A DNA stretch of 41,232 nucleotides, taken from NCBI GenBank assembly GCA_020852855.1, contig JADZAA010000082.1:1-41232 (forward strand). The letters are read 5' to 3'. Each line of letters starts with the position of its first letter. The stretch's first letter is position 1. Both the position numbers and the translations under genes were made by a program. The notes beneath the pieces are model-generated. The model worked only from the letters and a program-made list of their open reading frames with translations. It was not told where the DNA came from and made no database searches. The DNA is from Bacteroidota bacterium (GTDB lineage Bacteria > Bacteroidota > Ignavibacteria > Kapaibacteriales > UBA961). Shown piece by piece: positions 866 through 35,664 of this stretch.

Positions 866-1058
866 CAGAAGGCGGTTTTATCCGTAAATTTGTGGAGTGT
901 TTAACGCAAAATTACGAATTGTACGGCTGCGGACTGAAATATGACGATTAAGAAAAGCAATTTCTTAGATTTACAGTTCATGTGCCACTTGCGTTGAATG
1001 AAAGCATTTATTCCGATAATCATTGCTTGGGTATACCTGAAATTCATGCGTTTTCTTG

Positions 1059-4000
1059 ATGAAAAAGCCGCGTTTTAATTGGCTCGCAATATTGCATTTT
1101 GCAATGCTCTTTCTTGTGTGTTTGCTTTGCTTGATGCAAGCGACTGCGGGCGAGCGTATTGTCCTTGAGTCAATAAATGCCGGTAAATCGCAATTTGTTT
1201 CCGCAAAGGTATATGTGGCAGACGAGTCCTGGAATATTTACCGTCCGCAATCGCCTTCCGAATTTATTGTGCGGGAGGGAGGCGTATCTATTCCTTTGCA
1301 ATCGTTTTCCTGCCCAACGTCTGCGCCCGTTTTGCCGTGTCCAATTTTGATAATGGCCGATGCTTCGGCGTTATCGGGTGCAAATTCTGCTGTTTGTCGC
1401 AGATTGATTTCCACGCTTGCCGCCGCGCTTCCTTCCGACAGCGCGACACTCGCCGCCGCTGTATTCGGCGAACGCCCGTATTTACTGCAAGATTTCACTA
1501 CAAATAAATCGGCAGTGGCAGCTGCATTCTTTAGTTTCCCGGCCGGCGACGGCAGTAATTTCTCCAATGCCTTGCTTATGCAACCGGCCGGTGCATTGCC
1601 TCTTGTGCGCCGCCATAACGGATCAAAAGCGATAGTGCTTATCACCGACAGCTACGGCGCAATCAATGCCGACTCGGTTATCCGCCTTGCAAACAGTCTG
1701 AATGCTCGTATAATTTGCGTGTCTTTGCAGGCGCAACTTACAGCTGAATTGCGTAGAATTGCAGATGAAACAAGCGGCTTCGTTTTAGAAGATATTAATA
1801 CCGAATCGCGTGCCGAAGAAGCAACACATAGAATATATTGGCAACTCGGCGGCGTTTTACCTTGTGAAATAACTTGGAAATCAATTGAGCCATGCTCCCC
1901 AGGCACGCGCAGCTTCTTAATTGAACACATTCGGACGGGCGCACAATCATTAGCCGGTCCTTTCGGTGCGGCACAGTCGCTTCCGGCACTCGAAGTTTTG
2001 CCGAAATTTATTGATTTCGGTTGCGTCAATCATCAAGACTCTATAGTCGTTACGTTAAAAGCGTCGGGCGGTGCAATTGTATTGCAGTCGGCAATTTCGG
2101 ATAACTCTGATTTTATTGCGGATGTTCCGGCTGAAACAACTATTCAGGACGGCGGCGAATTTAAATTAACCGTTAAATATTCTCCTTCGGATTCACTTTT
2201 CACTTCGGCGCAAATCAATATTCTATCCGACGTTTGCCCTGTTTACTTAACGGCTTCGGCAGGTTGCAACGGACAACGCCTGCGCCCGAAAACGGTAACG
2301 ATTGTTGCGCCCAACGGCGGTGAAGAACTTGTGGCAGGCGATACGGCACATATTGTATGGCGCGGAACGCCCGCCGGCGGAATTACCCGCGCAGAATATA
2401 GTCTTGACGGTGGGATTTCTTGGAAATTTATCGCCGAAGGTAACGGTATGACCTCGTTCGACTGGATAGTGCCCTCGGAAAGCTCGCAGCGATGTTTGCT
2501 TCGGGTTGTATATTTTCGTTCATTAAATCAACAAATTACGCTGAAAGGCCATAACGGTACCGTTAATTCGGCGCGTTTTTCAAACGATGGCGCACTTTTG
2601 GTTACTGCTTCCGCCGATAAAAATATCCGTGTTTTTGATGTAAAAACAGGTGCGAATATTCACGGTTTTCCATTTATTGGCGAAAACAGCGGCGTTAAAT
2701 GTGCCGAGTTTAGCCCCGACGGTAACGATATTGCCGCAGTAGCCGCCGGAAATTTGTCCGTTTACGTTCTGAATGCCGTAACAGGCAAAGAGCATTTTAA
2801 ATTGGACGGGCACAGCGACGGCATAAATACTTGCGAATATAGCCATGACGGAAAATACCTTCTGACAGGCGGGCGCGACCTGACGACGCGATTATGGAAA
2901 ATTGCCGAAAACATAGGTATAGCTTCACTTGTAGGACATTCCGGCGAAGTTACGGGAGCGCGTTTCCGCGAAACAGTTACGAAAATAGGGGCGGACACTT
3001 TACAGTTCTTTACGTTTGCCGCCGGCGATAAAACTATAGCGGATTATATTGCCGCATATCCGCCGGGGAACGTGGAACGCCAATCGTATTCTTTGCCCGT
3101 TGCTGTTCGCGCTGCCTGCTATTCGCCTGTTGCCAAACAATACGCCGTGGCTCTTGCCGGCGGAATAATACGAATCACATCGGATTTGAACAGGTCGGGG
3201 GAGGAGTTGTCCGTACAGACAATAATCAACGACCTCGATTTCAGTCCGGACGGACAATTGATTGCCGTTGCCTGTGAAGACAATTCGGCACGTATTTTTA
3301 ACGTTAAGTCCGGCAAAGAAGTTACTGTTTTCAAAGGACATACAAGCGCAGTTTTATCTGTCAGATTCAGCCGTGACGGTACGCGAATTGCAACCGCCGC
3401 CGCCGATAGCTCGGCTCGTATTTGGGATGTAAACATAATGCCGATACAGGCCGATACGTCCAATAATTTTTGGCGTATGGGGATAAAAAGGCTATGGGCC
3501 AAACCTTGTGATTTTGGCGCGGTTGCAGTCGGCTCTGTGAGCGATTCGTCATTTACCGCTGCCGTTTGCAACGGAGGATCCCTTCTTGCTACCATAGACT
3601 CAGTTGTTATTTCTTCCGGTACTTCGCAGTTCGAGGTATCCGGCGGTTTCCCGAGAACTCTTGTGCCCGACTCATGCGCTTCGATTCGCTTGCGCTTTAT
3701 GCCAACCGAAGAGAAAACTTATTCGGCGGTTTGCAGTGTCTATAGCGGTGGCCGCATAGCGCGTGAATTTGCCGTTTCCGGCGTTGGAACTCGTGTTGCT
3801 CTTCAAACAGTTTCGATTATAGATTTCGGTTTTACGGAAACCGGCACTTTCAAAGATTCGGCTGTTCGCATTCTTATTCGCAATAATTCCGCAGTTGCAC
3901 TTAGTATCGATTCTGTAAAACTTGCCTCGACCTCGGCCGGCTTCGGCGTTCTCGATGCCGGAAATACTACGCTTGCACCGGGAGAAATACGCTCAATGGA

Positions 4001-4826
4001 GCTCAGGTTTGAGCCTCTTCAAAACGGCCGCCGTTCCGACCGCCTGCAAATTCATTACTCGGAATCCGGCCGTCCGAACATAACGGGAGAAACTGTGGCG
4101 GCCGACCTTTTCGGCGAGGGAATTTGTACGCCCACAAGCGGCTTTGCCCGAATTGTACCTGCCGATAATCGTATGGAAACCGAATCCGGCAGACAAATTC
4201 GAGTGAAAATCGGAGTTGTGCCGCCGGACGACATTCCTGTTGAAAAATTGCCTGCAAGTTTTTCTGCTACCGTACAATGCAATGCTTCGTTATTATTGCC
4301 AATCACCGATTCTCTTCGCGGAACGGTTTCAGGTGGTGTACGAACGTTTAAAATTCGCGGTATACGCTTGCCAGGTCAGGATGTTCTGATTTCGCTCGAT
4401 TTTTACACGGCGTTCGGCGACGCAGACTCTACGGCGGTGGAAATTACGGATTTTAATTGGCCCGGCTGTATTCCTTTCGCACTTCCACGGCCTGTATACG
4501 TGGTATTTTCGGACATTTGCCGTGCGGGTGAAAAACCGCGAAGATTTGTAAACGGCGATAAAAAACTTTATCTGGCTATAGATCCAAATCCGATAATCGA
4601 AAAAGGCAACGGCAATATTAAATTCGGATTGCGCGAAACCGGATTGGCACGTTTGCGCCTGACGGATTTATCGGGCAGAACATTACGTACGTTTGCGGAC
4701 GGCATATACGAAGCGGGCGAATATAGCGCAACGGCCGATTACGATTCTATGGCAGCCGGACTTTATATGCTCGTTCTTGAAACTCCCACAAAAGTAATTT
4801 CCACTCTATTGCCGATTACCCGATAA
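1059..4826 (+). CDS. Secreted surface protein: VWA-like domain, choice-of-anchor-D/Ig-like domains, WD40 beta-propeller, T9SS type A sorting domain
   Basis: Signal peptide MKKPRFNWLAILHFAMLFLVCLLCLMQATAG. VWA-like PILIMADASALSG...KAIVLITDSYG. Seven WD40-like blades (GHNGTVNSARFSNDGALLVTASADKNIRVFD etc.). C-terminus LRLTDLSGRTLRTFADGIYEAGEYSATADYDSMAAGLYMLVLE. The track starts at a TTG (1056); ATG at 1059 is preferred. Confidence 0.85.
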   Translation: MKKPRFNWLAILHFAMLFLVCLLCLMQATAGERIVLESINAGKSQFVSAKVYVADESWNIYRPQSPSEFIVREGGVSIPLQSFSCPTSAPVLPCPILIMADASALSGANSAVCRRLISTLAAALPSDSATLAAAVFGERPYLLQDFTTNKSAVAAAFFSFPAGDGSNFSNALLMQPAGALPLVRRHNGSKAIVLITDSYGAINADSVIRLANSLNARIICVSLQAQLTAELRRIADETSGFVLEDINTESRAEEATHRIYWQLGGVLPCEITWKSIEPCSPGTRSFLIEHIRTGAQSLAGPFGAAQSLPALEVLPKFIDFGCVNHQDSIVVTLKASGGAIVLQSAISDNSDFIADVPAETTIQDGGEFKLTVKYSPSDSLFTSAQINILSDVCPVYLTASAGCNGQRLRPKTVTIVAPNGGEELVAGDTAHIVWRGTPAGGITRAEYSLDGGISWKFIAEGNGMTSFDWIVPSESSQRCLLRVVYFRSLNQQITLKGHNGTVNSARFSNDGALLVTASADKNIRVFDVKTGANIHGFPFIGENSGVKCAEFSPDGNDIAAVAAGNLSVYVLNAVTGKEHFKLDGHSDGINTCEYSHDGKYLLTGGRDLTTRLWKIAENIGIASLVGHSGEVTGARFRETVTKIGADTLQFFTFAAGDKTIADYIAAYPPGNVERQSYSLPVAVRAACYSPVAKQYAVALAGGIIRITSDLNRSGEELSVQTIINDLDFSPDGQLIAVACEDNSARIFNVKSGKEVTVFKGHTSAVLSVRFSRDGTRIATAAADSSARIWDVNIMPIQADTSNNFWRMGIKRLWAKPCDFGAVAVGSVSDSSFTAAVCNGGSLLATIDSVVISSGTSQFEVSGGFPRTLVPDSCASIRLRFMPTEEKTYSAVCSVYSGGRIAREFAVSGVGTRVALQTVSIIDFGFTETGTFKDSAVRILIRNNSAVALSIDSVKLASTSAGFGVLDAGNTTLAPGEIRSMELRFEPLQNGRRSDRLQIHYSESGRPNITGETVAADLFGEGICTPTSGFARIVPADNRMETESGRQIRVKIGVVPPDDIPVEKLPASFSATVQCNASLLLPITDSLRGTVSGGVRTFKIRGIRLPGQDVLISLDFYTAFGDADSTAVEITDFNWPGCIPFALPRPVYVVFSDICRAGEKPRRFVNGDKKLYLAIDPNPIIEKGNGNIKFGLRETGLARLRLTDLSGRTLRTFADGIYEAGEYSATADYDSMAAGLYMLVLETPTKVISTLLPITR

Positions 4827-10100: not shown

Positions 10101-12767
10101 TTACATTGCGATAACATTGCGATAATATTCCAAGAACGGTGCGGCTCCGGTTCGTGCAAGCCAAAAAACAGCGGCAGAGCCGACAACTATTGCCAATACT
10201 GCAACTCCTATTGCATAAACGTATATCGGGCGCACATCGAACACGACGGCGGCGGCTTTGAGAGTTCGGTAGCCGCACCAGAGCCACATAGTCGCCAGAA
10301 TAAATTCCAACCAAAAGACGGAACGATATAATGCGAGCAGTTTGTAGAGCCCTATTGCTACGGGGAGCAACAAAATTGCGGGCAAAGCACACCATACCGC
10401 GATTGCGAGAGTATCTGTAAAATAGATTTTTTCCGGCAGAAATATCGAGGCTGTTCGCAATATTGCGGCCACCACTATAAATCCGAAAAACGTAAGTGCG
10501 CTGAATGCGGCAAGCGAAAGCACCGGCGACCAGAGAGCGGGCTGAACTATTCCCGACAAATTATTTGATTGCAATAGGGTTACAACCAAAAATTCCGTGC
10601 GTATGTCGGAACGGAAAAAATGGAAGATAACGGCGCATGTCAGCCCTATCGATGCTGCTATAATAGAGCCGAGAGCAATAGTATGCAATGTGCTCAGAAG
10701 CCGTTGGTCGCGAATATCCGCATAAAAATTAAACGGCCGCAATAATGCACGGAATATGTATTCGCGAAAACGCCTGAAGCGGCTCATAAGAAGCAGAAAG
10801 ATTATTCCCAGCATCAGCCCGACGGCTATAAATAGAAACGGAGCATCTTCGCTGTGATTACCGGCTTTCAGCAACGGCTCTTTTTCGTCGTTCAGAAGTG
10901 CTTTCAGCATCAAATATGCCACGCGGGGGCGGCGTTGCATATCAACTATTCCCGCAGTGCATACAAAAGGGTCGTCGGAGTTTGTGGAAAGAACCTGCCT
11001 TGCGGCGCGATAATCGTTAAAAGCCCAAATTATCTCACCTGCAATATTTATTGTTTCACATTCGCGATAGCAATCGCGAATGTATTGCGCTTGCGATTCG
11101 AGCGACAGCGGGTCGGTGTAACCGTGTTGCTGATTATTGGGTTGCGCCATTTTTCCGAATGTAACCATAACGGGTTGTTTACCTGTCAAAGAAAGCATGC
11201 GCTCTATTTCGGGGCGAAACGACAGCCCTGGCTGCCACCGGCCGTCGGAGCGAAAACAAAGGAAGTCGAGCCCGCCGGCAGAAATTGATTTTGCGCCGAA
11301 TCTAATAGTTTTGAATAATAATTTATCGGAAATTGAGCGTATTGAAGAAATAATCCTTCGCTGATAATTTTCAAACTCATCGGTTTTCTCCTGAATACCG
11401 TCGGAAATACCAATGGCTAAAAAGGCAGGATCTTTATCGAAAGCTCCTACCAATCTTTGCGCCGTATTGGTCATTCGTACTATTGTTTCATCAGATGCTA
11501 TAAATTGGCGCGGCAAATCGTATGCGGGCAAATCCAAAAAAACGAATATACCGTAGCGATTGCATAATTCCATAAAATACGGATGAACCTGGGTATATCT
11601 TACCCTGACAAGGTTAATGCCGAGCGTCTTGAAAAGTTGTACGTCGCGATCTATGTCGTCGGCCGAAAGCGTAATGCCCTCGTCGCCCAAATGTTCCGAA
11701 TACTCCACGCCTTTCAACGAGTGCGGCGAACCGTTAATAATAAAATGCGAGCTGTCGCCCGACTGCGCTATGCTTACTTCCCGCAAGCCGATTTTAGACT
11801 CGAACTCGTCTATTATTTGCGAGCCGGAGGATAGCCTTATCTTTAAATCGTAAAGCGACGGACTCTCGGGCGACCAAAGTTCGGGCGAGGCTATCTTCAT
11901 TGCCAGTTTTATCGGTGCTGTTCTGTCGCGCTCTACCAATATCTGCTGTTCCGATACGGAAGCCGCAGCCGAACTGCCAGGGCGGCGAATCTCTGCTGTT
12001 ACCGTTATAGGAATTTTTTTGAGTATAGCGGTAGAAATACTGTCGGATCCGGCCGCCGAAAGCCTCTCTATTGCTCCCGAAATTATACTTGCGGAAATAG
12101 TTGCATCGCAGGAACTGTATTGTCCCGAAAAATTATATCGCAGGCGAACGTCGTTTGTCCATACATGCGGCGTTCCCACAAGCAGAATATCGCGCGCTAT
12201 ACCCGAATATAATTTTTCCGCAAAGAGGTGACGCTGATTTATTACCGCCGGCGGCGTTACCACAAGCTCTACGAGATTAACGCCGCTTTTGATAATACGC
12301 TCCGGAATATGCACGTAGAACGGTGTCATGCCGCCAAAAAATCGCCCGACATATTGAGCATTGATATAAATTTCGGTTTCGTCGCTGACACCGAGAAAAT
12401 AGAGATTCCAGCCGTATCGTTGCAACATATCGTCATCAATTCGAATATTGCGTCGAAAGCGAATTTTTCTTCCGGCCACGTCCGAATACGGCAAAGTTGC
12501 CACGTCCCAAGCCATACCGTCGTAGCTGCGTTCCCATTTTCCGCCGAGCGAACTGACAAATCGCGTTGATGAATACGTTATGATACGCATCTGCTCTTTT
12601 GTCAAAGGCTTGTAGGACGATTGTGCGGTCTGCGCACAAACAGAAGATACGGCCATCAAGGCAAAAAATGCCGAAAGCGGAAGAAAACTCCGAAGCATTG
12701 TCCGGAAAAAAGAAGCGGGTGTAGAGTTTATTGTCATAAATTTTACAGAAAAATCAAAGAATATCAA
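10101..12767 (-). CDS. GH2-like (beta-galactosidase/glucuronidase-type) protein with C-terminal multi-TM domain
   Basis: Sugar-binding and Ig-like domains (WDVATLPYSDVAGRKIRFRRNIRI...YVGRFFGGMTPFYVHIPERI), TIM-barrel entry (LFKTLGINLVRVRYTQVHPYFMELCNRYGIFVFLDLPAYD), GEIIWAFNDYRAARQ, then about six hydrophobic helices. Confidence 0.8.
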   Translation of the reverse strand: MIFFDFSVKFMTINSTPASFFRTMLRSFLPLSAFFALMAVSSVCAQTAQSSYKPLTKEQMRIITYSSTRFVSSLGGKWERSYDGMAWDVATLPYSDVAGRKIRFRRNIRIDDDMLQRYGWNLYFLGVSDETEIYINAQYVGRFFGGMTPFYVHIPERIIKSGVNLVELVVTPPAVINQRHLFAEKLYSGIARDILLVGTPHVWTNDVRLRYNFSGQYSSCDATISASIISGAIERLSAAGSDSISTAILKKIPITVTAEIRRPGSSAAASVSEQQILVERDRTAPIKLAMKIASPELWSPESPSLYDLKIRLSSGSQIIDEFESKIGLREVSIAQSGDSSHFIINGSPHSLKGVEYSEHLGDEGITLSADDIDRDVQLFKTLGINLVRVRYTQVHPYFMELCNRYGIFVFLDLPAYDLPRQFIASDETIVRMTNTAQRLVGAFDKDPAFLAIGISDGIQEKTDEFENYQRRIISSIRSISDKLLFKTIRFGAKSISAGGLDFLCFRSDGRWQPGLSFRPEIERMLSLTGKQPVMVTFGKMAQPNNQQHGYTDPLSLESQAQYIRDCYRECETINIAGEIIWAFNDYRAARQVLSTNSDDPFVCTAGIVDMQRRPRVAYLMLKALLNDEKEPLLKAGNHSEDAPFLFIAVGLMLGIIFLLLMSRFRRFREYIFRALLRPFNFYADIRDQRLLSTLHTIALGSIIAASIGLTCAVIFHFFRSDIRTEFLVVTLLQSNNLSGIVQPALWSPVLSLAAFSALTFFGFIVVAAILRTASIFLPEKIYFTDTLAIAVWCALPAILLLPVAIGLYKLLALYRSVFWLEFILATMWLWCGYRTLKAAAVVFDVRPIYVYAIGVAVLAIVVGSAAVFWLARTGAAPFLEYYRNVIAM

Positions 12768-13042: not shown

Positions 13043-16000
13043 ATGACGTCCATTTCATTCTTACCGATAATACGTTTTTTGATTCCGGCGGCGTTCGGGT
13101 CTATTGCTTTACTATTTTGCAATATAGCCGAGGCGGCCGATTTCACCGGTGATTTTTCCCATTTTTATGCGCGTTCGCCGCATATAGTCGTTAGCGGAAA
13201 GGCGGCAATCGCACTGCTCCGGCTAAATCGTTTATTTGTTCCATTTTTTACGTACTCGCCGCAATCGGACCCGGTCCGCCAAGAACGCCCCGTTTTCTTT
13301 TCGGTGCCGCCCTCTATGCGCAATCCGTTCGGTGCGACCGACTATGCCAAGCGTCCGTCTTTACCGCCCGGTTATGGCGTTTCCGTTACGTTCGATTCTA
13401 CCGTTACAACCGTGCGCGCTTCGGAGGATTTGCAGGGTGTAGAGATGTCGCCCTATAAAAATTTGCCATTGGACGAGTATCTCGCTCTGCGGCGCGAGCA
13501 ACAGCAGCGGCAATTATGGGATTCGCTGGTGGCGCAATACGATATTCGCCGCTCTATGTCGGGGCGCGATTTGGCAAGTATTATCAGCCAAGCCACAGGA
13601 TTAAATATACCCGTTCCGCAAAATCCGATTTTCAGCATTTTCGGCAAGCCTTCCATAAGTATTAACGTAAGCGGCGACGTAAACCTTCGCGCAGGTTGGC
13701 GATGGGACTCACAGAAACTTGGTGCGGCCTCCGCCTTCGGGCAAACGCAGTCCGGCCCCTTGTTCTCGCAGGACATAAACCTGAATGTGCAGGGAAAAAT
13801 AGGCGATAAATTGGGTATGAACGTGGATTGGAATACAAGGCAGCAATTCGACCTGAATAATCGCTTCAATATCGGTTTTACGGGTAATGACGACGACATC
13901 ATAAAGCGCGTTGAATTAGGAAACGTGCAATTCCCGACACCATCGGCACTTATAGGAAGCGGTCAGGCTTTGTTCGGCGCACGCGCCGATTTTCAGTTCG
14001 GCCCGCTTTTCCTGAAAACGGTAGCCTCGCAACGCAGGGGCGAGCGTAAATTTATTCAGGCACGCGGCGGAACAGTACGCCAAAACTTTCAATTGCGAGC
14101 ATACGACTATGCCCGCAATCATTTCTTGCTCGATACGGTTTATAAATCGGTGTTTCGAGAGTATTATCGAAATGCCGTGCCGGTTATTCCGCCAAGCGCG
14201 TCGCAATATCGCGTTAAGGAAATCGAAGTATGGGAATCTACCGGCGATGTGCGCGAGCAGGCAACTGCCGCAGAAGCACGGCTTTACGCCGAAATCGCCC
14301 CCAGAAATACATCTGCCGGACAGCGCTACCCGGATTCGATGAAACGCACCGCACCTATTGCCGGACAAATAGAAGCGGGAAAATTTATCAGACTTGAAGC
14401 CAACAGATATTTTTACGACTCAGACCTCGGCCGCCTTACAATTTTAAATATGCGAACCGACCGAACATACGGTGTAGGCTATCGCGTCGAGGCGTTAACG
14501 CCCTTGCCCGACGACGACCTGACGTATGGAACTATGGTGCGCGAACGCAACGAAAAAGATACGCTTATACTTAAATTGGTGACGCGCCCGAATATGCAAC
14601 CCGGTTTTAAGTCGCTATGGGCAAGGCAACTGCGCAACATTTACAATACCGGACAGACAAACGTTAATCTTTCAGATGCGAAAATCAATGTTTGGTATTT
14701 GCGTAAAAACAACGATTCGTCTGACGTTCTCGACGGTGCGCCCGACAAAGTTGTTACGGTATTGCGGGTAGACCAAGTAAATAACGGCACGGGTGCGCCG
14801 CCGCCTGACGGAAAATTTGACCTTGGCGCACCTCCTACGGCCGCCGCCCAAGCCAATAGTTTCCAATCTTCGGTGCCGGGCAGCAATACGGCAGTACAAG
14901 CGCAACAAGGCTCGGCATTTTTCAATCCGATGCGCGGCGAAATTCTATTCCCGAGTTTAGAACCTTTCCGCGAAGGGTTACGCGATTATTTCCGCAAAAT
15001 AGGCAATCCGCAGCTTGCCGAAGAATATGTGTTCGATGCCGTGTATGACACCACAGTAGAAGTAGCACGCCTGCAAACTGCGCGTGATAGATTTGTTATA
15101 TCCGGCGAGGCTACGGGAACATCACAAGGGGGCAGCAACCGTATAGCTCTCGGTGCATGGGGTATTGCTCCGGGCAGTGTGCGCGTTACGCTCGACGGTA
15201 CACCTCTGAAAGAAAATACCGACTATATTGTTGAATATTATTCGGGTATTTTGACTGTATTAAATCCACGCGCCATGCTCCCAACGGCTAATTTAAGCGT
15301 GGAACTCGAGCAAACCGACCAATTTACTACGTCAACAAAAACCATGATAGGTGTTCGTGCCGATATGCAGGTCTATAAATCCCGAACAACTCTCGGCAAT
15401 ATCGGCATGACTTTCATGCTCTATAATCAAGCATTGCTTTTAGACCGCGTTCGACTGAACGACGAACCTGTTTCTAACTCAATGATAGGCTTTGACGGCA
15501 ATTTAAGCACAGAAATTCCTGCAATTACAAAGGCGCTCGACGCATTGCCTTTCCTCGATACTAAAGAAAAGTCTACTCTTAATCTCCGCGGTGAAATAGC
15601 CGCTATGTTGCCCGATCCGAATAAACGCCGATCCGACATAGGTTCGGATAACGGCGAATCAGTAGCTTTTCTTGACGATTTTGAAGGTGCGCAACGCTAT
15701 ATTACTCTCAGCACATCGGGAACGCAGTGGACACATGCGGCGCTGCCAGTTGACTCAACGCTGTATTTTGACGAAGCCTCGCGCCGCGACTTATGGTTCC
15801 GCGGCTATTCATATTGGTTTAATTATTTCATAGGGCGTACTCGGCAAAACGAAGTGTATCCTAATCGCCAATTCGGACAAGGATATGCCACTTTAAATGA
15901 CCTTAAATTTCGATTTAACCCATATTTCCGAGGTATTTACAATCGTAATCCGAATTTTGTAGACACACTGAATCCTCGATGGAGATCCGACAGTACTCGA

Positions 16001-19000
16001 TACGAGCAATATAAACTCGACAATAAATACAGGGCTTGGGGCGGTATGCAACGCTTGCTTTCCACGTTCAATACGAATTTTGACAATGATAATATAGACT
16101 ACATCGAGATTATGATGCGCGTGGCGGCCGAGCCGTCTGCCGAAATGTATATTGATATTGGCCAAATAAGCGAAGATATAGTTCCTAATAATACGCTCGA
16201 TACGGAAGACGGAGCAAATCCCGAATTTCCGATACCCAACAATATAATCGACCCGGGCGAAGACATAGGCATAGACCGATTGGACGACCTGCATGAAAAA
16301 GCCGAATATCCCGCGCCGCTGTCCGACGAGGCCGACCCGGCACGCGATAATTACACTTTTAATTTCCAAAAGCCGCTTCAAGAGCAATCTGAAGCCGATT
16401 TCTTGAAATACAATAATTTCGAGGGCAATGCCTCGCTTTCCGAATCAGGGCAATTCCCCGATAAAGAAATACTGAACAACAACAACGGCCAAACCATATC
16501 GCTCGACAACAGTTACTTTACATACAAAGTAAATTTGAACACGAACGACCCGTCGCAGAATCAGCAGATTGTAGGCGGTGGCACACCCGGATCCGGATGG
16601 TATTTGTGGCGCATACCTATTCGCCGTCCATATAAGCAAACCGGCAATCCGCAATTTTCAAATATACAATACATTCGCGTTTGGGCAAAGGGCGGCACAT
16701 TACTTGCCGATATTGCCGATTGGCGATTCGTCGGTGCGCAATGGCAACGTTCCAATGCTTTTCAGCCCGGCGTTTCACCTTATGACAGCGTGCTTTCCGT
16801 TGCATTCGTAAATGTAGAGGAAAATAGCGGTGCCCCCGATTATTATACATTGCCTCCGGGCGTTCAACGTCCGCGCCAATTACTGAATCCCGACCCAACG
16901 CAAGATATTCGTTTGAACGAACAATCGCTTTCCCTCGGCGTTCGCAATTTGCGCTATAACGACGAGCGCATGGCTGTTCGCATATTACGTCCGACAGACA
17001 TTTTTTACTATAAACAGCTGAAGTTTTTTATACACGGCGACGGCTCGATGCCCGATAATATAGTGCCGGGTGCAACGCCGGCTGCCTACGCTTTTATTCG
17101 GTTCGGCATTGATTCCGCAAACTACTACGAATATCGCCGTCCGCTTCTGCGCGGCTGGCAGGATGTAGGGATAACATTAACCGAACTTGCCGCACTTGTA
17201 AAGCAAAGCCGCGCCCCGGGCAGCGAATTTACTCGCCAGGAATTTACCGTGCCGGGCGACCCTCTTGCGCGATATGCAATTAAGGGAACGCCTATTCTGA
17301 CAAAAGTACAATTTATAGGTTTTGGAATTGCAAATCCGGCAGACCGATACCCCAACGAACTGACCACTACGATGTGGGTAGATGAACTTCGGCTTATCGA
17401 ACCGGTCAATAATGTGGACTGGGCTGCAATCGGCAGCGCGGAATTGAAATTGGCCGATGTGGGAACTATTAATGCGAATTTTTCTACTACACTTCCGAAT
17501 TTTCATAAACTTGAAGAGCGTTTCGGCGACCGCACAACGTCCACCGCCTGGTCGTTTCAGGCGCAGGGAAGTTTGGAAAAATTCCTGCCTAAGTTTATGA
17601 GCTCAATGAAATTGCCCATAAGCTATTCACACACGGAAAATTTGACTGATCCGCAGTTTGCCGCTCAAAGTGATGTGGAACTCAATACTGCGGCCGACGC
17701 GGAATATCGCCGTGTCCTCGCGCTCGGGCAGCCCGATTCTATAGCCCGAAAAGCGGCAGACAACATAGTCTCTCGCTCGCAAACCGTTCGTGTGCAAGAT
17801 AATTGGGCGCTTACCGGTGTAAAACTCGGTATTCCCGTTGATTTTTGGCTGATTAAGGAAACGCTTAATCGAATTACGATTGGCTATAGCTACGGGCAAA
17901 CGTTCGAGCGTTCGCCTGTGGTGCAGGAAAGATTTGAATGGCAATGGCGGCTTACAATGCAATATGCCCTGACAATTCCGCAATCGCTATGGGCAAAGCC
18001 GTTCGGCTGGGCAGACGACATACCGATACTAAGCTCTTTCAAAGATTGGAAAATCAACTTCTTACCGTCGAACTTCTCGACGGGATTGACCATGAACCGC
18101 GCGCGAAGCACAGAACAATCGCGCTTCTTGTCGTTTCCAAGCCCGGTATCGCGCAATTTTACGGCCGACCGTACCGCCCAATTCTCGTGGAGATTCTCCG
18201 AAAAGGGCTTGCTAAGTCCGATTATTGACTATAATTTCGGTACGCAAAGCACGCTCGTTCCCATGGAAACGGACGAAAACGGCAAGCAACGAAGTGCGAA
18301 CGACCTTTTTAAGCGCATTGTAGGCGAAAACGGCAAATTAAATTTTGGCGAGGATAATGCGCATACACAAACCGTTACGGTAAACTTCCGACCGCAACTG
18401 CCCGAATTTATAGGACTTGGGAATTATCTGGAAAATACCGGCTCGTACTCTTCGGTGTTTACTTGGCGAAATGCACTGCAACCCGACCCGGCACTGGCTG
18501 ACGTAGTGAAGCAGGCATCTTTTGCAAGTAAACTCGATCTTCGCACAAATTTCAAACTCAAACCGTTTGCCGATAAACTTTGGGGCAAGAGAGCCGCTTC
18601 CGACACTTCGAGCAATATTTTCAAATCAATAGGGCGCGTACTTAAAACGATTTTTCTTGATTTCGAAACATTGAGCTTCAACTTCAGACAGGATAATTCA
18701 TCGCTTAATCCGGGCGTGTTCGGCGGAACAGGTCTAACGAATTTCTGGCGTGGTGCCGTAGGGCTCGGTCAGCCGCCGTCGCAAGGCGCGGGAATGGCTT
18801 ATCAGCTTGGGCTTGTAGAGCATCCGCACGGCGATATAGGCTTTGCTCCAAGCAGTTCATTTCCGTTTTTTAAATTTACTGCGTATGACGGGATACGTCC
18901 GGCTAATTCAGTGTTTCAGGAAAGCTTTACGCAAAAATCGGGCATTGAAATGCGAACTAACCGCCAACTTTGGCCCGGCGCAACATTAGACCTGAATTGG

Positions 19001-19960
19001 AAATCCGATTTTGCATACAATAAACTGCAAACGGTAACAACAAATTCCGAAGGAATACCGGACTACAGCAATATCGTGGTTACTACAACTTACGGCAGGT
19101 CTTATCTTTCTTTGCCTAAATTCCTGTTTTTCGCGCCGCTTAACAATACGGTAGAGCATGTAATCTCGCTGTACAACGAGCGAAAAGCGCAAATAAACGA
19201 GCCCGATACGCTTAAGCGCAATCAGCTTTATCTGGAAGCATTGTCCGAATCGTTTCACGACGGGCTTGAATCTTTTACATTCCTGCCGAAGGATTTACGG
19301 AAAATTATGCCGAGCGTAAATTGGACTTTTCGCTGGGACGGAATAGAAAAATGGGGTATGCTGGACGGCGTTGCGAGGCGTATATCGCTGGAACACGCTT
19401 ACGTTTCCACTTATACAGAAACCGCGCTTATCAATGACCGCGGCAAATTGATACAGGCGCAACAAATTCAGACCGGATTTCAACCCGTAATCGGGCTTAC
19501 GATGAATTTTGACGAGAAAAAACTTGACGGAACACTTAATGCAACGCTAAAGTATAATTCTCGAACCAATTACTCGCTATTGGCCGCAACCACGCAAATC
19601 AAACGGGAGAGTGCGCAGGAAATAACTTTGAACGCAAGCTACAACAAGCGGAAATTTCCTTTGAAAATTTTCGGATTAGACCTTGAAAACGACATGGAAT
19701 TTGCTTTCCTCGGCTCTTTCAAGCGCACAAGCAGTTCCACTTACGATATATTGAACCTGACAAGCCCCGACGGGCAACGGTTAGACGGCAGTACGCAAAT
19801 CAAGATTGAGCCGAGTGCCCGTTATGCCATTAGCAATCGCGTTACCGTTCGGGCATTTATCAGCTATGAAGCCACGATAAACGAAGGCGTAGCCTCGCCC
19901 GGATTTAATACTACTCAAGTTGGCGTTGACGTTCGCATTTCTATTGCAGGCGGACGATAA
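13043..19960 (+). CDS. sprA: Cell-surface protein SprA (T9SS outer-membrane translocon component)
   Basis: 2305 aa with signal peptide and the SprA-type sequence LPLDEYLALRREQQQRQLWDSL, INVSGDVNLRAGWRW, VAFLDDFEGAQRYITLS. The length fits the family. Confidence 0.93.
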   Translation: MTSISFLPIIRFLIPAAFGSIALLFCNIAEAADFTGDFSHFYARSPHIVVSGKAAIALLRLNRLFVPFFTYSPQSDPVRQERPVFFSVPPSMRNPFGATDYAKRPSLPPGYGVSVTFDSTVTTVRASEDLQGVEMSPYKNLPLDEYLALRREQQQRQLWDSLVAQYDIRRSMSGRDLASIISQATGLNIPVPQNPIFSIFGKPSISINVSGDVNLRAGWRWDSQKLGAASAFGQTQSGPLFSQDINLNVQGKIGDKLGMNVDWNTRQQFDLNNRFNIGFTGNDDDIIKRVELGNVQFPTPSALIGSGQALFGARADFQFGPLFLKTVASQRRGERKFIQARGGTVRQNFQLRAYDYARNHFLLDTVYKSVFREYYRNAVPVIPPSASQYRVKEIEVWESTGDVREQATAAEARLYAEIAPRNTSAGQRYPDSMKRTAPIAGQIEAGKFIRLEANRYFYDSDLGRLTILNMRTDRTYGVGYRVEALTPLPDDDLTYGTMVRERNEKDTLILKLVTRPNMQPGFKSLWARQLRNIYNTGQTNVNLSDAKINVWYLRKNNDSSDVLDGAPDKVVTVLRVDQVNNGTGAPPPDGKFDLGAPPTAAAQANSFQSSVPGSNTAVQAQQGSAFFNPMRGEILFPSLEPFREGLRDYFRKIGNPQLAEEYVFDAVYDTTVEVARLQTARDRFVISGEATGTSQGGSNRIALGAWGIAPGSVRVTLDGTPLKENTDYIVEYYSGILTVLNPRAMLPTANLSVELEQTDQFTTSTKTMIGVRADMQVYKSRTTLGNIGMTFMLYNQALLLDRVRLNDEPVSNSMIGFDGNLSTEIPAITKALDALPFLDTKEKSTLNLRGEIAAMLPDPNKRRSDIGSDNGESVAFLDDFEGAQRYITLSTSGTQWTHAALPVDSTLYFDEASRRDLWFRGYSYWFNYFIGRTRQNEVYPNRQFGQGYATLNDLKFRFNPYFRGIYNRNPNFVDTLNPRWRSDSTRYEQYKLDNKYRAWGGMQRLLSTFNTNFDNDNIDYIEIMMRVAAEPSAEMYIDIGQISEDIVPNNTLDTEDGANPEFPIPNNIIDPGEDIGIDRLDDLHEKAEYPAPLSDEADPARDNYTFNFQKPLQEQSEADFLKYNNFEGNASLSESGQFPDKEILNNNNGQTISLDNSYFTYKVNLNTNDPSQNQQIVGGGTPGSGWYLWRIPIRRPYKQTGNPQFSNIQYIRVWAKGGTLLADIADWRFVGAQWQRSNAFQPGVSPYDSVLSVAFVNVEENSGAPDYYTLPPGVQRPRQLLNPDPTQDIRLNEQSLSLGVRNLRYNDERMAVRILRPTDIFYYKQLKFFIHGDGSMPDNIVPGATPAAYAFIRFGIDSANYYEYRRPLLRGWQDVGITLTELAALVKQSRAPGSEFTRQEFTVPGDPLARYAIKGTPILTKVQFIGFGIANPADRYPNELTTTMWVDELRLIEPVNNVDWAAIGSAELKLADVGTINANFSTTLPNFHKLEERFGDRTTSTAWSFQAQGSLEKFLPKFMSSMKLPISYSHTENLTDPQFAAQSDVELNTAADAEYRRVLALGQPDSIARKAADNIVSRSQTVRVQDNWALTGVKLGIPVDFWLIKETLNRITIGYSYGQTFERSPVVQERFEWQWRLTMQYALTIPQSLWAKPFGWADDIPILSSFKDWKINFLPSNFSTGLTMNRARSTEQSRFLSFPSPVSRNFTADRTAQFSWRFSEKGLLSPIIDYNFGTQSTLVPMETDENGKQRSANDLFKRIVGENGKLNFGEDNAHTQTVTVNFRPQLPEFIGLGNYLENTGSYSSVFTWRNALQPDPALADVVKQASFASKLDLRTNFKLKPFADKLWGKRAASDTSSNIFKSIGRVLKTIFLDFETLSFNFRQDNSSLNPGVFGGTGLTNFWRGAVGLGQPPSQGAGMAYQLGLVEHPHGDIGFAPSSSFPFFKFTAYDGIRPANSVFQESFTQKSGIEMRTNRQLWPGATLDLNWKSDFAYNKLQTVTTNSEGIPDYSNIVVTTTYGRSYLSLPKFLFFAPLNNTVEHVISLYNERKAQINEPDTLKRNQLYLEALSESFHDGLESFTFLPKDLRKIMPSVNWTFRWDGIEKWGMLDGVARRISLEHAYVSTYTETALINDRGKLIQAQQIQTGFQPVIGLTMNFDEKKLDGTLNATLKYNSRTNYSLLAATTQIKRESAQEITLNASYNKRKFPLKIFGLDLENDMEFAFLGSFKRTSSSTYDILNLTSPDGQRLDGSTQIKIEPSARYAISNRVTVRAFISYEATINEGVASPGFNTTQVGVDVRISIAGGR

Positions 19961-22173: not shown

Positions 22174-22210
22174 TTCGAAAATTGAAGTGCAAGCCGAAAG
22201 GAAATATCGT

Positions 22211-25200
22211 ATGAAAAAACATTATGCTTCCATCATTTTCTTTGTTCTGACGTTTGCTTGCGGGATAAATTCCCAGAATGAAGCATACGGTCAAACTTGT
22301 GATACGGTTAAATCATGCATCGGAAATGCACTTACGCTTACCGTTAACAGCGGCAAAGGTGCACATTATGTTGACGTTGATAATTATTCGGTCCGCGATA
22401 AATCGCATACTGCACTTACTTTCGAGGCATGGATAAAGCCCGAGCGCATTGCCGGAACAACGCAATATATAGCAGGACTTTGGGGGCCGGGAAACGATAA
22501 TAACGACGTTTGGGTAGTATATTTTGCTCCGAACGACGATTTGGTGTTCGAAATAAACGGTGACGGAACAAAACTCAGAAGTACCGACAACACAATAGTG
22601 CGCACGCCTGCAACCACTTTGTTCAGCAATAAATGGTCGCATATAGCGGCGGTGTTCGACGGTGCTTCTCAAACGGCGTATCTGTATATTAATGCGGCAC
22701 TTGCGGCAACAGCACGAAATGCTCAATATCCGTCGGGTTATTTGCGTCCGCTTGAAAAAAACGATTTGCCGTTGCAGATAGGAAGTTGCAATGCACTTTC
22801 TAACGATGCAAAATTAAATCGCACTTTCCGCGGACAAATTGACGAGATCAGGATTTGGCAACGCGCTTTAAGTGCTACGGAATTACTGTGTCAGAAAGAC
22901 CGTTCGCTTAACGGAAATGAAGCGAATTTGCAGATTTATTATCGTTGCAATTCTATTCCCACTAACTTTACGCTATGCGATGCAACGGGAAAAGGCTACA
23001 CGGGGCGTATGCGCAGCGGTGCGGTATGCGCTCCGTCCGACCGTCCGATAAATACATCTTTAATAGCTTCGCCGGCAAATATAACGGCCAATATAAACTG
23101 TGACACTTCGGCTGTTTACACAGTAACGATACAAGACACTTCAATTTGTGCAAACAGTGTGGCTTTTCGCATAGTCGGGCGCGACAACGCAGCATTTACA
23201 TTGTCGCAAACAGGTGCGGCGCTTTCGCCTAAAACGCCGGTTGCTTTTCAGGTCAGGTTCAATTCGGTTATTACCGGCTCTATTATTGCGGATTTGAAAA
23301 TCAATACTACCAATCGTTGCGACCAAGAAGTTACGATTCCAATTCGCCTTACGCGCAAAACGGAATTTACGTCGAACCGTGCGCGTTTGAATTTCGACAC
23401 GCTTTACGCCGGCTGTCGCGAGCAATTATACAAAGACACGGTTATCAGTATTTGCAATACAAGCGGCGACATAGGGCAGCCCCGTCCGCTGACCATTACC
23501 GGGTTTCCTACGCAAAAACCCGGTATATTTCAAGTAATTACACCTACGCCTATTACAATTGACCCGGGAGATTGCCGTAATATTACCGTGCGATTTATTT
23601 CGGGAGATACTTCCGCATTATATTTCGATACGCTGTCAATTGTTTCAAATAGTCGCTGTGCGGGCGGGGCAAGCATACCTTTGCGCGGGGTTGTGCGTGA
23701 AGTTCTCGGACTAACCGATTTAAGCGGAAAAAACAGGCTGAATAAACTTACGTTTCCCCCCGAATGTGTCGGCCAGCTAAGCAATCCTGTCTATTGGACT
23801 TATCGCGATTTGACCTCGAGGCCGATACAGGTGGATACCGTAATTGTGCCGCCCGGATTTACGATGAGAACTTTCAGGTTTCCGGCTGTTCTGCAACCCA
23901 ACACAGGATATTTGCAGGAATATTTCAGATTTTTCCCGAACAGGTCAGGGCAATTTAACGACTCTATAATATTTATTTGCAGAATTGCCGGCTCGAATTG
24001 TACGGTAGAGCGCAAAGTGTATGTAACCGGTCGTGGAATAGAGTCCAAAGTGCAATGGTCGTCTAATTCTGGCAGTGCCGGAACTGTTATTGTGGGACAA
24101 GAAAGAACATTTAATGTAACCGCCACAAATCCTTCGCCCGACACGTTGCGAGTGTCTTTTTATCTGGAATCGGGCGAGGTCTTTTTGTTGGCCGGCGCAA
24201 AAGCGGTTGTCCTTGCACCGGGAAAATCCGTTACCATACCTATTACGTTCAGGCCGCTGAAAGATTCGCTTTACATTGATAAACTATGCTTGTTCGAGCA
24301 ACGATGCTTTACGGTGGACTGCATTCCGATAGACGGGCGCGGCATAATTGAAACGTTTCGATACGATCCGTATATTATGCGGACAGAAAATGTAACAGCC
24401 TGCGGTTCAAGGCTTGATACAATGGAGATAGAAAATATAGTGAATACACCGCAAACTATGACTGAAATAAGACTTAGCGACCCAAGCGGACGATTTACCG
24501 TTGTCGAACCGATGCCTATTCCGTCGGGCGTAACCGTTCCCGTAGGCAGACGCGTTCGTTTTATTTTTCGCTATACACCGAACGATATTACGCAAGACCG
24601 TGCCGATAAAGCATATCTGAAATATAAGTGCAACGGCGTGGATTGGGCTGCGCCGATGTTCGGTTCGTCGGCCGCGCCGCGTTTATCCGTAACAACACTT
24701 ACGCAGTTCGGAACTTTGGAAGTAGGCGACAAAAAAATAGACAGTTTTTCGGTTGAAAACTCGTCGCAGTTGCCAATACGGGTTGATAGCATTTCGATAC
24801 CACCCGGATTTACAATGCTTGGCGCGTCGCGCATTCTGCCGGCAGTTCTGTCGCCGCGCGATTCGATTATTGTGCGTGTCCAGTTCGAGCCTGCCGCCGC
24901 GCAAACTTACGATGCTGATTTCACGGTTTATTCCGATTCTATATGTCCGATTAAACAAGACGGCCGGCTTGGCGGTAAAGGAATAATCATAAAATTGGAT
25001 GCGCCGCTTTCTCTGATGAATTGGGGGTATGTGCGCCCTTGTGATTGCATAGAGCGCGAACTGCCGCTTGTAAATCAATCGTTGGCACATAATATGACGG
25101 TGGATTCACTATGGGTAGACAGTGTGCGAGTTACAGGCGCAACACCGCAATTCTGGTCTTGGAAATCAAGTTATTCGCCGAGCGGAACATTCCCGTTTAC

Positions 25201-27223
25201 TATACCGCCGAACAGCCGCGATACCGTTCGTGTTACATTTTGTCCGCGAACGCCCGCAGAAGATAAATATGTGAATTGTGCTGCAAGATTACATATAAAT
25301 GCAGCCGGAATGGGCTGGAGCGAAGCCTATGAAGTGTTACTCGTCGGCAAACGCGCACTTTTGCAGCGTCCAACACCTACTGTAATAGGCTTCCCGCCAA
25401 CCCGCGTGGATACTGCGCTTGCACCGTATTACGTAAAAATAATAGTGCCTTGGGTAGATGTAAACCCCGAACAAGAGCCTATCGTAATAGATTCGATTAC
25501 GTTTGAACCTGACGAACGTGTGTTCAGCTATGCCGACAGCGCGTCGAGGCCGTTTCCGCTTACTGTTACTTCGATAGATTCGGCAAAAATCAGACTGCTG
25601 TTCAAGCCAAGGTCGCCGCGCCTTTACGTTGCGCGTATGCGATTGCATATTAGCAAGCCTTGTCCCGATATTGACACAACTGTTTTGGTTACGGGCAGCG
25701 GTTTTGCTCCGCCGTTCAGTTTAGATTTGACTTTCGATAATGTGCGGCCGGATATTGACACGTTCCGTATTACCACTTGCGATACACTTCGCGTACCGAT
25801 TTACACAACGCGCAGCGTTCCGGCGGATTTAGTTACGATAAACTGCCGAATCGGTTACGATACCAATGAGTTACAGCTTGCCGGACTTGAATCGCCGTAT
25901 TTGGCCGATATTTGCTATCCGCAATTTTTGCCGTCGCTTAACTTCGCGCCTTACTCCAATACCGCAGGTTCTAAAATAATTGCAAAGAATCTTTGCTCTG
26001 TCGACTCGTTAAAACCATTCGTTATTGCCAAACTGATTTCGAAAACAAAGCAACGTTCCAATACTAAAATCACGGTAGACAGCATAAATTTCGACACCGA
26101 GCGAACCATTTTATTTAAAATTATATCGGAGAACGACGAAGGGCGCGTTATTGTCCAAAAAACCGATATTCAAGTAATGAGTTCCATCAATTTTGACAGT
26201 GTGCGCGTACTTGATTGCGTTGACCGCTCGGTATCTGTGCTGAATACCGGCGATGTTCCCGTTACGATAGATTCTTTGCCGGGGCTCGCGCCCGACGTGC
26301 AAATAATAGGAAGTGTTCCCGCACGGAACGCGCTTATAAATCCCGGTGATTCAATAGTCTATACTCTTCGGTTCTGTCCCCGCAAGGAGATTGTCAAGTC
26401 AGATTCATTGGTTGCCAAAAGCGTTGTTCCATGTGCCGTAGCCGATACAAATTATATGGCTGGGCAAGGTTATGCTCCCGATATTCCGGTTATATTCGGC
26501 ACATCGCCTTCATTCCCGCCGGCCGATACGGCACGCGCCGTTATTGGCGACACGGTAACTATTCCGATATTTATGAATGTCGACCTCTCTGCGCAATATC
26601 ATGGCACAACGTATTGGCTCGAAAAAATCGGCTTTGACGCAGAGGTATATTACGATCCGTTTGCTTTGAAACTGCTTTCTACCGAAGTGCCGATACAACG
26701 CGACGCTGTAATAAACGCAAGACCGGGGCATATTAAATTTACCTTTACCGACCGCGATACGGTTCGTGCCGGAAAGATAGCCGAAATGAAGTTCCTTGCC
26801 GTGGCTCCGGATTCGGCATACTCGGCATTTTCGGTGACGGCCGGTAATTTCCGCACGGATTCGCTGATGTTTATAGATATTGTGCCGCTTTCTGTGCCGG
26901 CCGTATTTGCCTCGACGGGCGAATGTACCATTACTACGCTTCGCTTTACTGGAACGCGCCCGTCGCTTATGCAAAACCGCCCGAATCCGTTCGACGAGAA
27001 TGCAATAATAGATTTTATGATAATGGAAACCGCACCGGTTACGCTTGTAATATATGATTTGCATGGCAGACCGGTAAAAACATTGCTTGACGGCTCAAGT
27101 TCATTTGAAAGCGGCACATACAGCGTAAATGTTTCGGCGGCCGACTTGGAAACAGGTGTCTATACTTGCATTATGAAATCGGGAACTTATACGGGGCAAA
27201 TGCGAATGTCGGTTGTGAAATAG
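22211..27223 (+). CDS. Large secreted protein: LamG-like domain, repeated choice-of-anchor-D/Ig-like domains, cohesin-like C-terminal region, T9SS sorting domain
   Basis: MKKHYASIIFFVLTFACGINSQNEAYGQ signal peptide; LamG-like ALTFEAWIKPERI...FRGQIDEIRIWQRALSATEL; repeated VPIPFxP-type Ig modules; C-terminus LMQNRPNPFDENAIIDFMI...LVIYDLHGRPVKTLLDG. The track's GTG start at 22187 is less likely than ATG at 22211 with GAAAGG upstream. Confidence 0.85.
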   Translation: MKKHYASIIFFVLTFACGINSQNEAYGQTCDTVKSCIGNALTLTVNSGKGAHYVDVDNYSVRDKSHTALTFEAWIKPERIAGTTQYIAGLWGPGNDNNDVWVVYFAPNDDLVFEINGDGTKLRSTDNTIVRTPATTLFSNKWSHIAAVFDGASQTAYLYINAALAATARNAQYPSGYLRPLEKNDLPLQIGSCNALSNDAKLNRTFRGQIDEIRIWQRALSATELLCQKDRSLNGNEANLQIYYRCNSIPTNFTLCDATGKGYTGRMRSGAVCAPSDRPINTSLIASPANITANINCDTSAVYTVTIQDTSICANSVAFRIVGRDNAAFTLSQTGAALSPKTPVAFQVRFNSVITGSIIADLKINTTNRCDQEVTIPIRLTRKTEFTSNRARLNFDTLYAGCREQLYKDTVISICNTSGDIGQPRPLTITGFPTQKPGIFQVITPTPITIDPGDCRNITVRFISGDTSALYFDTLSIVSNSRCAGGASIPLRGVVREVLGLTDLSGKNRLNKLTFPPECVGQLSNPVYWTYRDLTSRPIQVDTVIVPPGFTMRTFRFPAVLQPNTGYLQEYFRFFPNRSGQFNDSIIFICRIAGSNCTVERKVYVTGRGIESKVQWSSNSGSAGTVIVGQERTFNVTATNPSPDTLRVSFYLESGEVFLLAGAKAVVLAPGKSVTIPITFRPLKDSLYIDKLCLFEQRCFTVDCIPIDGRGIIETFRYDPYIMRTENVTACGSRLDTMEIENIVNTPQTMTEIRLSDPSGRFTVVEPMPIPSGVTVPVGRRVRFIFRYTPNDITQDRADKAYLKYKCNGVDWAAPMFGSSAAPRLSVTTLTQFGTLEVGDKKIDSFSVENSSQLPIRVDSISIPPGFTMLGASRILPAVLSPRDSIIVRVQFEPAAAQTYDADFTVYSDSICPIKQDGRLGGKGIIIKLDAPLSLMNWGYVRPCDCIERELPLVNQSLAHNMTVDSLWVDSVRVTGATPQFWSWKSSYSPSGTFPFTIPPNSRDTVRVTFCPRTPAEDKYVNCAARLHINAAGMGWSEAYEVLLVGKRALLQRPTPTVIGFPPTRVDTALAPYYVKIIVPWVDVNPEQEPIVIDSITFEPDERVFSYADSASRPFPLTVTSIDSAKIRLLFKPRSPRLYVARMRLHISKPCPDIDTTVLVTGSGFAPPFSLDLTFDNVRPDIDTFRITTCDTLRVPIYTTRSVPADLVTINCRIGYDTNELQLAGLESPYLADICYPQFLPSLNFAPYSNTAGSKIIAKNLCSVDSLKPFVIAKLISKTKQRSNTKITVDSINFDTERTILFKIISENDEGRVIVQKTDIQVMSSINFDSVRVLDCVDRSVSVLNTGDVPVTIDSLPGLAPDVQIIGSVPARNALINPGDSIVYTLRFCPRKEIVKSDSLVAKSVVPCAVADTNYMAGQGYAPDIPVIFGTSPSFPPADTARAVIGDTVTIPIFMNVDLSAQYHGTTYWLEKIGFDAEVYYDPFALKLLSTEVPIQRDAVINARPGHIKFTFTDRDTVRAGKIAEMKFLAVAPDSAYSAFSVTAGNFRTDSLMFIDIVPLSVPAVFASTGECTITTLRFTGTRPSLMQNRPNPFDENAIIDFMIMETAPVTLVIYDLHGRPVKTLLDGSSSFESGTYSVNVSAADLETGVYTCIMKSGTYTGQMRMSVVK

Positions 27224-30545: not shown

Positions 30546-31394
30546 ATGAGCAAGCAAAGAAATCTCGAAAAAAGTAAAACAACCGTGTGCGAATCTTGTT
30601 CTGCATATAAATCCGCCAATTTGAAAAAAATGGGGCTGAACGCAGATAATGCGGATTATGTAATTGCGCTCGCGGGCAATCCGAATACCGGCAAAAGTAC
30701 TGTATTTAATGCTTTGACCGGATTACGTCAGCATACGGGAAATTGGCCGGGTAAAACTGTGGCGCGTGCCGAAGGCGGCTTTTCGTTCAGAGAAAAATTC
30801 TTCAAGTTAGTTGACCTTCCGGGCGCATATTCATTGCTTTCCACAAGTCCGGACGAGCAAATTACTCGCGATTTTATTCTTTTTGGCCGCCCCGATGTTA
30901 CGGTTGTAATAGCCGATGCCTCGCGCCTTGAACGGTCGTTGTTGCTTGCCGCACAGATTATGGAAATAACGTCTCGCGTGGTAGTTTGTGTAAATCTTAT
31001 TGACGAAGCTGAAAAAGAGGGGGTTTCCGTAGATGCCCGCGCTCTTTCCCGCGAAATAGGAGTGCCGGTGATTTTGACCGATGCTCGCTCGCAGATTGGT
31101 TTAGATGCACTTCTGTCGGCAATATACGATGTTGCTTCGGGCGAAGAAAAGCCGTCACCGCGTTTGCGCGTTGCCTTGCCGAAAGAGGCAGAATATGCAG
31201 TTCGTGAGATTGAAGGCGATGTTTTGCGATTGTTCCCGAATATTGACAATGCTCGCTGGGTGGCTTTGCGATTACTGGAAGGCGACACTTCGATAGAAAA
31301 TGCCATAATCGACGGTTCGCTTGGAGTACCGGAACTTATGCCGGCTATTGACGACAGCACCGCAATTCCAAATTTAAAACCGGAAGCTGCATAA
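30546..31394 (+). CDS. feoB: FeoB N-terminal GTPase part (split FeoB)
   Basis: G1 GNPNTGKSTVFNALTG, switch region QHTGNWPGKTV, G3 DLPGAYSLLSTSPDEQITRDFI; ends before the permease domain. Confidence 0.9.
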   Translation: MSKQRNLEKSKTTVCESCSAYKSANLKKMGLNADNADYVIALAGNPNTGKSTVFNALTGLRQHTGNWPGKTVARAEGGFSFREKFFKLVDLPGAYSLLSTSPDEQITRDFILFGRPDVTVVIADASRLERSLLLAAQIMEITSRVVVCVNLIDEAEKEGVSVDARALSREIGVPVILTDARSQIGLDALLSAIYDVASGEEKPSPRLRVALPKEAEYAVREIEGDVLRLFPNIDNARWVALRLLEGDTSIENAIIDGSLGVPELMPAIDDSTAIPNLKPEAA

Positions 31395-31396
31395 AA

Positions 31397-35596: not shown

Positions 35597-35664
35597 AGGG
35601 TTTTGTTTTGTAAACAGAGGTAAAGTTATCAAAGTTACGGCGAATATTCGGCTGAGGTAATAGT

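Follow-up and report, generated by a model that had tools for sequence, protein, structure and literature searches.

What does a protein with the fold of a GH2 glycosidase do when both of its catalytic glutamates seem to be gone? The question is raised by a minus-strand open reading frame of 888 codons (12767..10101) in the window, as we call the whole stretch of 41,232 nucleotides analysed here. The listed start of this frame is a TTG at 12767, and a likelier one is Met24 (12698), where MLRSFLPLSAFFALMAVSSVCAQ looks like a signal peptide (about residues 24-46, 12630..12698, minus strand, by hydropathy, with the hydrophobic segment at residues 27-45 in the window protein and 30-48 in the family mean), giving a coding sequence at 10101..12698 with its stop codon at 10101-10103. 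Three domains follow on the same strand in the order typical of GH2: a GH2_N jelly-roll (about residues 60-205, 12153..12590; PF02837 with 29.7 bits against a cut-off of 28, and beta strands in the AlphaFold model), a GH2 immunoglobulin-like domain (about residues 206-340, 11748..12152; PF00703 with 48.7 bits, cut-off 23), and a catalytically degenerate GH2 TIM barrel (about residues 341-615, 10923..11747), recognised by Pfam, profile alignment, AlphaFold and Foldseek. Besides GH2_N and GH2, Pfam matches GH2_C over its first 70 or so positions only. The AlphaFold model (pLDDT mostly 75-90 in the ectodomain, 70 for the whole protein) has GH2 beta-glucuronidases as its top Foldseek matches in the PDB (probability 1.00, E about 1e-31), and a profile of 42 orthologues matches such enzymes across the whole ectodomain (E about 1e-64). 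The best score against the NCBIfam beta-galactosidase/beta-glucuronidase equivalogs is 102.6 bits, against a curated cut-off of 1284. The protein thus belongs to GH2 by fold and ancestry, and an earlier note's opinion that the rest of the fold is recognisable agrees with Pfam, the model and Foldseek alike.

The catalytic glutamates of GH2 enzymes lie just past strand 4 (acid/base) and at the end of strand 7 (nucleophile), and the AlphaFold model of the window protein has the two corresponding columns at these same places. The earlier note had located the altered motifs in PAFLAIGISDGIQE (residues 447-460, 11429-11388) and QPVMVTFGKMAQP (residues 531-543, 11177-11139), had judged that both glutamates seem to be missing, and had proposed alignment to GH2 enzymes as a check. 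Both stretches do sit where claimed, and the alignment bears out both losses. With the columns set by profile alignment and predicted secondary structure, the N-E of solved GH2 enzymes aligns with ‘eg’ of the 42-orthologue family profile and their nucleophile Glu with ‘s’; in the window protein these columns fall on D456-G457 (11397..11402, minus strand), where D-G replaces N-E and Gly457 occupies the acid/base position, and on Thr536 (11160..11162, minus strand), where VTFGK replaces ITEYG. F537 was considered for the nucleophile position and rejected, as the alignment with a gap in this strand gives T536, the residue preceding F-G. Neither the W-S-x-G-N-E acid/base motif nor the T-E-[FY]-G nucleophile motif of retaining GH2 enzymes is present, and other pocket residues are eroded too. 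The protein therefore shares its fold and its order of jelly-roll, Ig-like domain and TIM barrel with GH2 beta-glucuronidases and beta-galactosidases (PDB 8dhe, 5z1a, 3cmg, 6xxw; LacZ, GUS), but differs from them in lacking the catalytic pair and most pocket residues and in having a C-terminal membrane domain and a housekeeping gene neighbourhood. Judged by its sequence, it is a GH2 member by fold and descent and not a GH2 enzyme, the absence of GH2 catalysis being well supported.

Matches to the window protein occur in 119 of the 123 genomes of its order and in 378 of the 391 of its class (a few of the weakest class-level ones may be ordinary GH2 proteins); they are mostly full-length and usually one per genome. 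Four families outside the class (f32, f35, f50, f62) also have full-length orthologues. Inspection of orthologues, which had also been proposed earlier, gave the same picture as the window: among 147 aligned full-length sequences both glutamates are absent from 113 and one is kept in 31 (nucleophile only in 18, acid/base only in 13), while both are present in 3, so that Glu stands at the acid/base column in 16/147 and at the nucleophile column in 21/147. The three that keep both (L116, L118 and L121) belong to one genus of the same class and retain the whole canonical pocket, namely Arg, His, Glu, Asn-Glu, Asn-x-Tyr, Glu, Trp and Asp, with GH2_C matched over its full length in L116 (8.6e-52) and L121 (3.3e-49). 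These active-looking versions share both the membrane domain and the smc neighbour with their dead relatives. In a tree from which the catalytic columns had been left out, and which alone cannot separate gain from loss, the state changed at least 6 times at the acid/base column and at least 11 times at the nucleophile column; since a complete pocket is unlikely to have been regained, an active GH2 ancestor with repeated independent catalytic losses is, as far as sequences can tell, the most likely origin of the family. Purifying selection acts strongly on the dead GH2 part, with dN/dS of 0.02-0.13 in GH2 parts that lack one or both glutamates and similar values in the membrane part. These ratios speak against a pseudogene or decaying copy, as does the open frame that nearly all orthologues have, and this possibility was rejected.

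The domain account in the earlier note stopped short of the C-terminus, where it omitted a Yip1-like membrane domain of six helices (residues 644-888, 10104..10838, minus strand), predicted from hydropathy, from the structure model and from a PF04893 match whose 20.9 bits lie below the cut-off of 28.6, the same domain reaching 32.8 bits in a relative (L181). The first transmembrane helix spans residues 644-662 (10782..10838, minus strand) by hydropathy and predicted helix, and the hydrophobic segments of the family mean lie at 643-661, 697-715, 752-770, 789-807, 818-836 and 850-868; for the roughly five helices expected of a Yip1 domain after the putative cytoplasmic segment, hydropathy and model concur. 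Directly behind the first helix comes FRRFREYIFRALLRPFNFYADIRDQR, with a mean entropy of 1.43 bits against about 2.3-2.9 elsewhere, the highest conservation in the protein. The juxtamembrane motif to which it belongs, FRRFREYIFRALLRPFNFYADIRDQRL (residues 664-690, 10698..10778, minus strand), is the most conserved block and is predicted to be cytoplasmic because it holds seven arginines (positive-inside). With Yip1 proteins (PF04893) the domain shares its multi-helix build and, by prediction here, a cytoplasmic N-terminal side, but it differs from them in being fused to an exported ectodomain and in having its own conserved motif, RRFRE...RPYNF..DIRDQR. No solved relative of the membrane domain was found by sequence or fold search, and a search for viral relatives of it likewise found none. 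The domain can be kept when the GH2 part is gone: three genomes of family f19 (loci L181, L182, L183) have it alone, as proteins of about 260-290 residues that still precede smc, and four further genomes of that family (G140, G175, G182, G193) gave no match. What is well supported, then, is a GH2-derived pseudoenzyme that is anchored in the membrane, held under selection and nearly universal in its class; the topology that we infer for the window protein is a periplasmic ectodomain, a first membrane crossing and a cytoplasmic motif ahead of the remaining helices.

Gene order supplies the clues to function. Outside the window's own order, the next gene downstream, in the same orientation, is smc at 61 of the 63 loci sampled across 22 families; the gap is mostly 3-30 bp, and the gene on the upstream side varies (tpiA, gatB, yidC and others). 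Within the order the neighbours are others than smc: a divergent sprA and a downstream hrcA-grpE pair in families f4 and f5, and purC-rodA in f7. In the window, the divergent neighbour is sprA, for the type IX secretion outer-membrane translocon (13043..19960, plus strand; TIGR04189, 890 bits), which is complete at 2305 aa and whose pairing with the pseudo-GH2 gene is the one that recurs in f4 and f5; an AhpD-like gene and a transglutaminase gene come after the pseudo-GH2 gene. Linkage to division or segregation genes is thus a property of the relatives and not of the window's own neighbourhood. A role as a glycan-utilisation gene was considered and rejected, the neighbours being housekeeping genes; the window protein is the sole PF02836 match in its genome, which implies that its gene is not part of a GH2 degradation set.

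A search with the membrane domain alone gave weak matches in other classes, and in one further class it led to shortened relatives, present in 94 of 146 genomes (E <= 1e-10). These are mostly about 530-650 aa long and consist of a signal peptide, a TIM barrel and a similar membrane domain; the jelly-roll and Ig domains are missing, and the barrels lack the catalytic glutamates as well. Of three run against Pfam, two gave no match and one only a sub-threshold GH2_C. In 23 genomes from six families (f51, f55, f60, f61, f64, f67) ftsZ lies directly upstream on the same strand, and at one locus (L189) the order is ftsQ-ftsA-ftsZ and then the barrel-only gene, ftsQ and ftsA being named by eye from sequence. 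Family f34 has ftsZ some 0.9 kb upstream, f40 has the barrel-only gene directly in front of smc, and in the sampled loci of f39, f43, f44, f52, f53, f54, f57 and f65 neither smc nor ftsZ was seen. The barrel-only proteins at L189, L190, L191, L193 and L204-L224, most of them encoded directly behind ftsZ, appear to form an unnamed family.

Near-universality in the group and the many relatives beside ftsZ or smc suggest that the protein probably functions within the cell envelope and not in digestion. The reading we favour, at a probability of about 0.5, is that this pseudo-glycosidase of the inner membrane acts in the periplasm as a scaffold or sensor and is probably connected with cell division or chromosome segregation. 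The signal peptide would send the GH2-fold ectodomain to the periplasm; the first helix would span the membrane and place the arginine-rich conserved motif on the cytoplasmic side, with five further helices completing the Yip1-like domain. The ectodomain would then act as scaffold or sensor for a periplasmic partner, either an envelope glycan or a wall or division protein, and the cytoplasmic motif and helices might relay its state to, or hold, the division or segregation machinery. It is gene order alone that points to this cellular role, and co-location with smc or ftsZ may mean mere co-expression, because both are housekeeping genes. A broader extension, which we put forward tentatively and regard as less probable than the reading itself, is that membrane-anchored dead glycosidases are an unrecognised division or segregation component across the Bacteroidota, in which the pseudo-barrel would read the wall or septum and the motif couple it to FtsZ or SMC, the active GH2 ancestor surviving in one genus.

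Analogies to such an arrangement exist in other folds. EnvC/NlpD-type LytM factors are catalytically degenerate wall-hydrolase regulators of bacterial division; the window protein resembles them as a dead enzyme fold in the envelope that might regulate division, but fold and topology differ. The closest mechanistic analogy, in working principle and not in kinship, is offered by the rBAT/4F2hc (SLC3) ectodomains, ‘fake or orphan’ alpha-glucosidases that serve a membrane transporter and that have a glycosidase fold without established glycosidase function, acting mainly in partner stability and trafficking (PMC8537225). There, too, a membrane protein carries a large dead-glycosidase ectodomain; the differences are that rBAT/4F2hc belong to the alpha-amylase family and not to GH2, are vertebrate proteins, and combine one helix with a separate partner. 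A literature search that covered a minority of subscription journals turned up no paper on the present family, on bacterial Yip1 domains or on dead GH2 proteins.

Three other explanations have been weighed against the periplasmic scaffold or sensor. The first is a dead-enzyme lectin that retains a sugar-binding cleft and uses it to detect or hold a glycan of the envelope or the environment, division playing no part. The retention of the GH2 fold under purifying selection is compatible with it, as is the conservation of two residues near the pocket, Arg388 (R in 121/147) and the acidic position 412 (D or E in 141/147); however, the -1 subsite columns are among the more variable, ranking 160 (His), 179 (Asn), 222 (nucleophile) and 269 (Tyr) in conservation among 272 columns, a pattern that gives no hint of a conserved ligand in the former pocket, and the adjoining genes are housekeeping and not glycan-utilisation genes. 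We regard this explanation as unlikely. From the earlier note's proposal, a non-catalytic sugar-binding or sensing role, the loss of catalysis stands, with both glutamates gone, the pocket eroded and most orthologues alike, and sensing or scaffolding fits; sugar binding is made less probable by how variable the pocket is, especially in its nucleophile and Tyr columns. The proposal further took no account of the membrane anchor, of the gene's standing as a core gene of its class, or of the smc and ftsZ neighbours of its relatives.

The second explanation makes the GH2 half a mere structural stabiliser of a functional membrane domain, which would be a transporter or a trafficking component. That the protein is most conserved in its cytoplasmic motif, that f19 has the membrane domain alone and that the barrel-only relatives could shed the jelly-roll and Ig domains all speak for it, but in nearly all members of the class the ectodomain is complete and as strongly selected as the membrane part, a degree of constraint beyond what a free passenger would call for. 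Its chances appear to us as low as those of the lectin. Far less likely still is the third explanation, a glycoside hydrolase or transglycosylase that works through displaced or non-canonical residues such as E460, D501 or E557: the acids D375, D412, D501, E557 and D585 are conserved, the canonical pocket survives in full in one genus, and E460, three positions past the acid/base column and acidic (E or D) in 71 of 87 own-order rows, is a possible displaced acid in principle, but E460 is not retained in other orders, the positions of D412 and D585 are acidic in solved GH2 enzymes too and so offer no replacement, and nothing takes the place of the nucleophile, whose column is occupied by S, N, C, L, H, T and other residues and, in the window protein, has no acidic neighbour (T536 lies between V535 and F537).

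Three points give the locus wider significance. Automatic annotation is likely to call this gene GH2 or beta-galactosidase-type and to count it as sugar-degrading in Kapabacteria/Ignavibacteria-type genomes, which is almost certainly wrong. Catalysis has been lost repeatedly, and apparently independently, within one conserved membrane architecture, and the genus with an intact pocket permits a comparison of live and dead forms. Lastly, the conserved place of the relatives beside smc or ftsZ makes them a specific, testable candidate for a new factor in division or segregation in bacteria that have been little studied.

Other genes of the window deserve brief mention. Two encode large proteins with choice-of-anchor-D domains (1056-4826 and 22187-27223), the first of which also has WD40 repeats and a weak type IX sorting tail; the products of both are probably secreted cargo of the sprA system. 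FeoB is split between two adjacent genes (30546-32893), one for the GTPase (30546-31394) and one for the membrane part (31397-32893), which come behind a gene for an MntR/DtxR-type regulator fused to FeoA. An aromatic amino acid lyase is strongly matched at 34079-35857 (PF00221, E 1e-198), and a gene for a group 1 glycosyltransferase comes after it in the same orientation.
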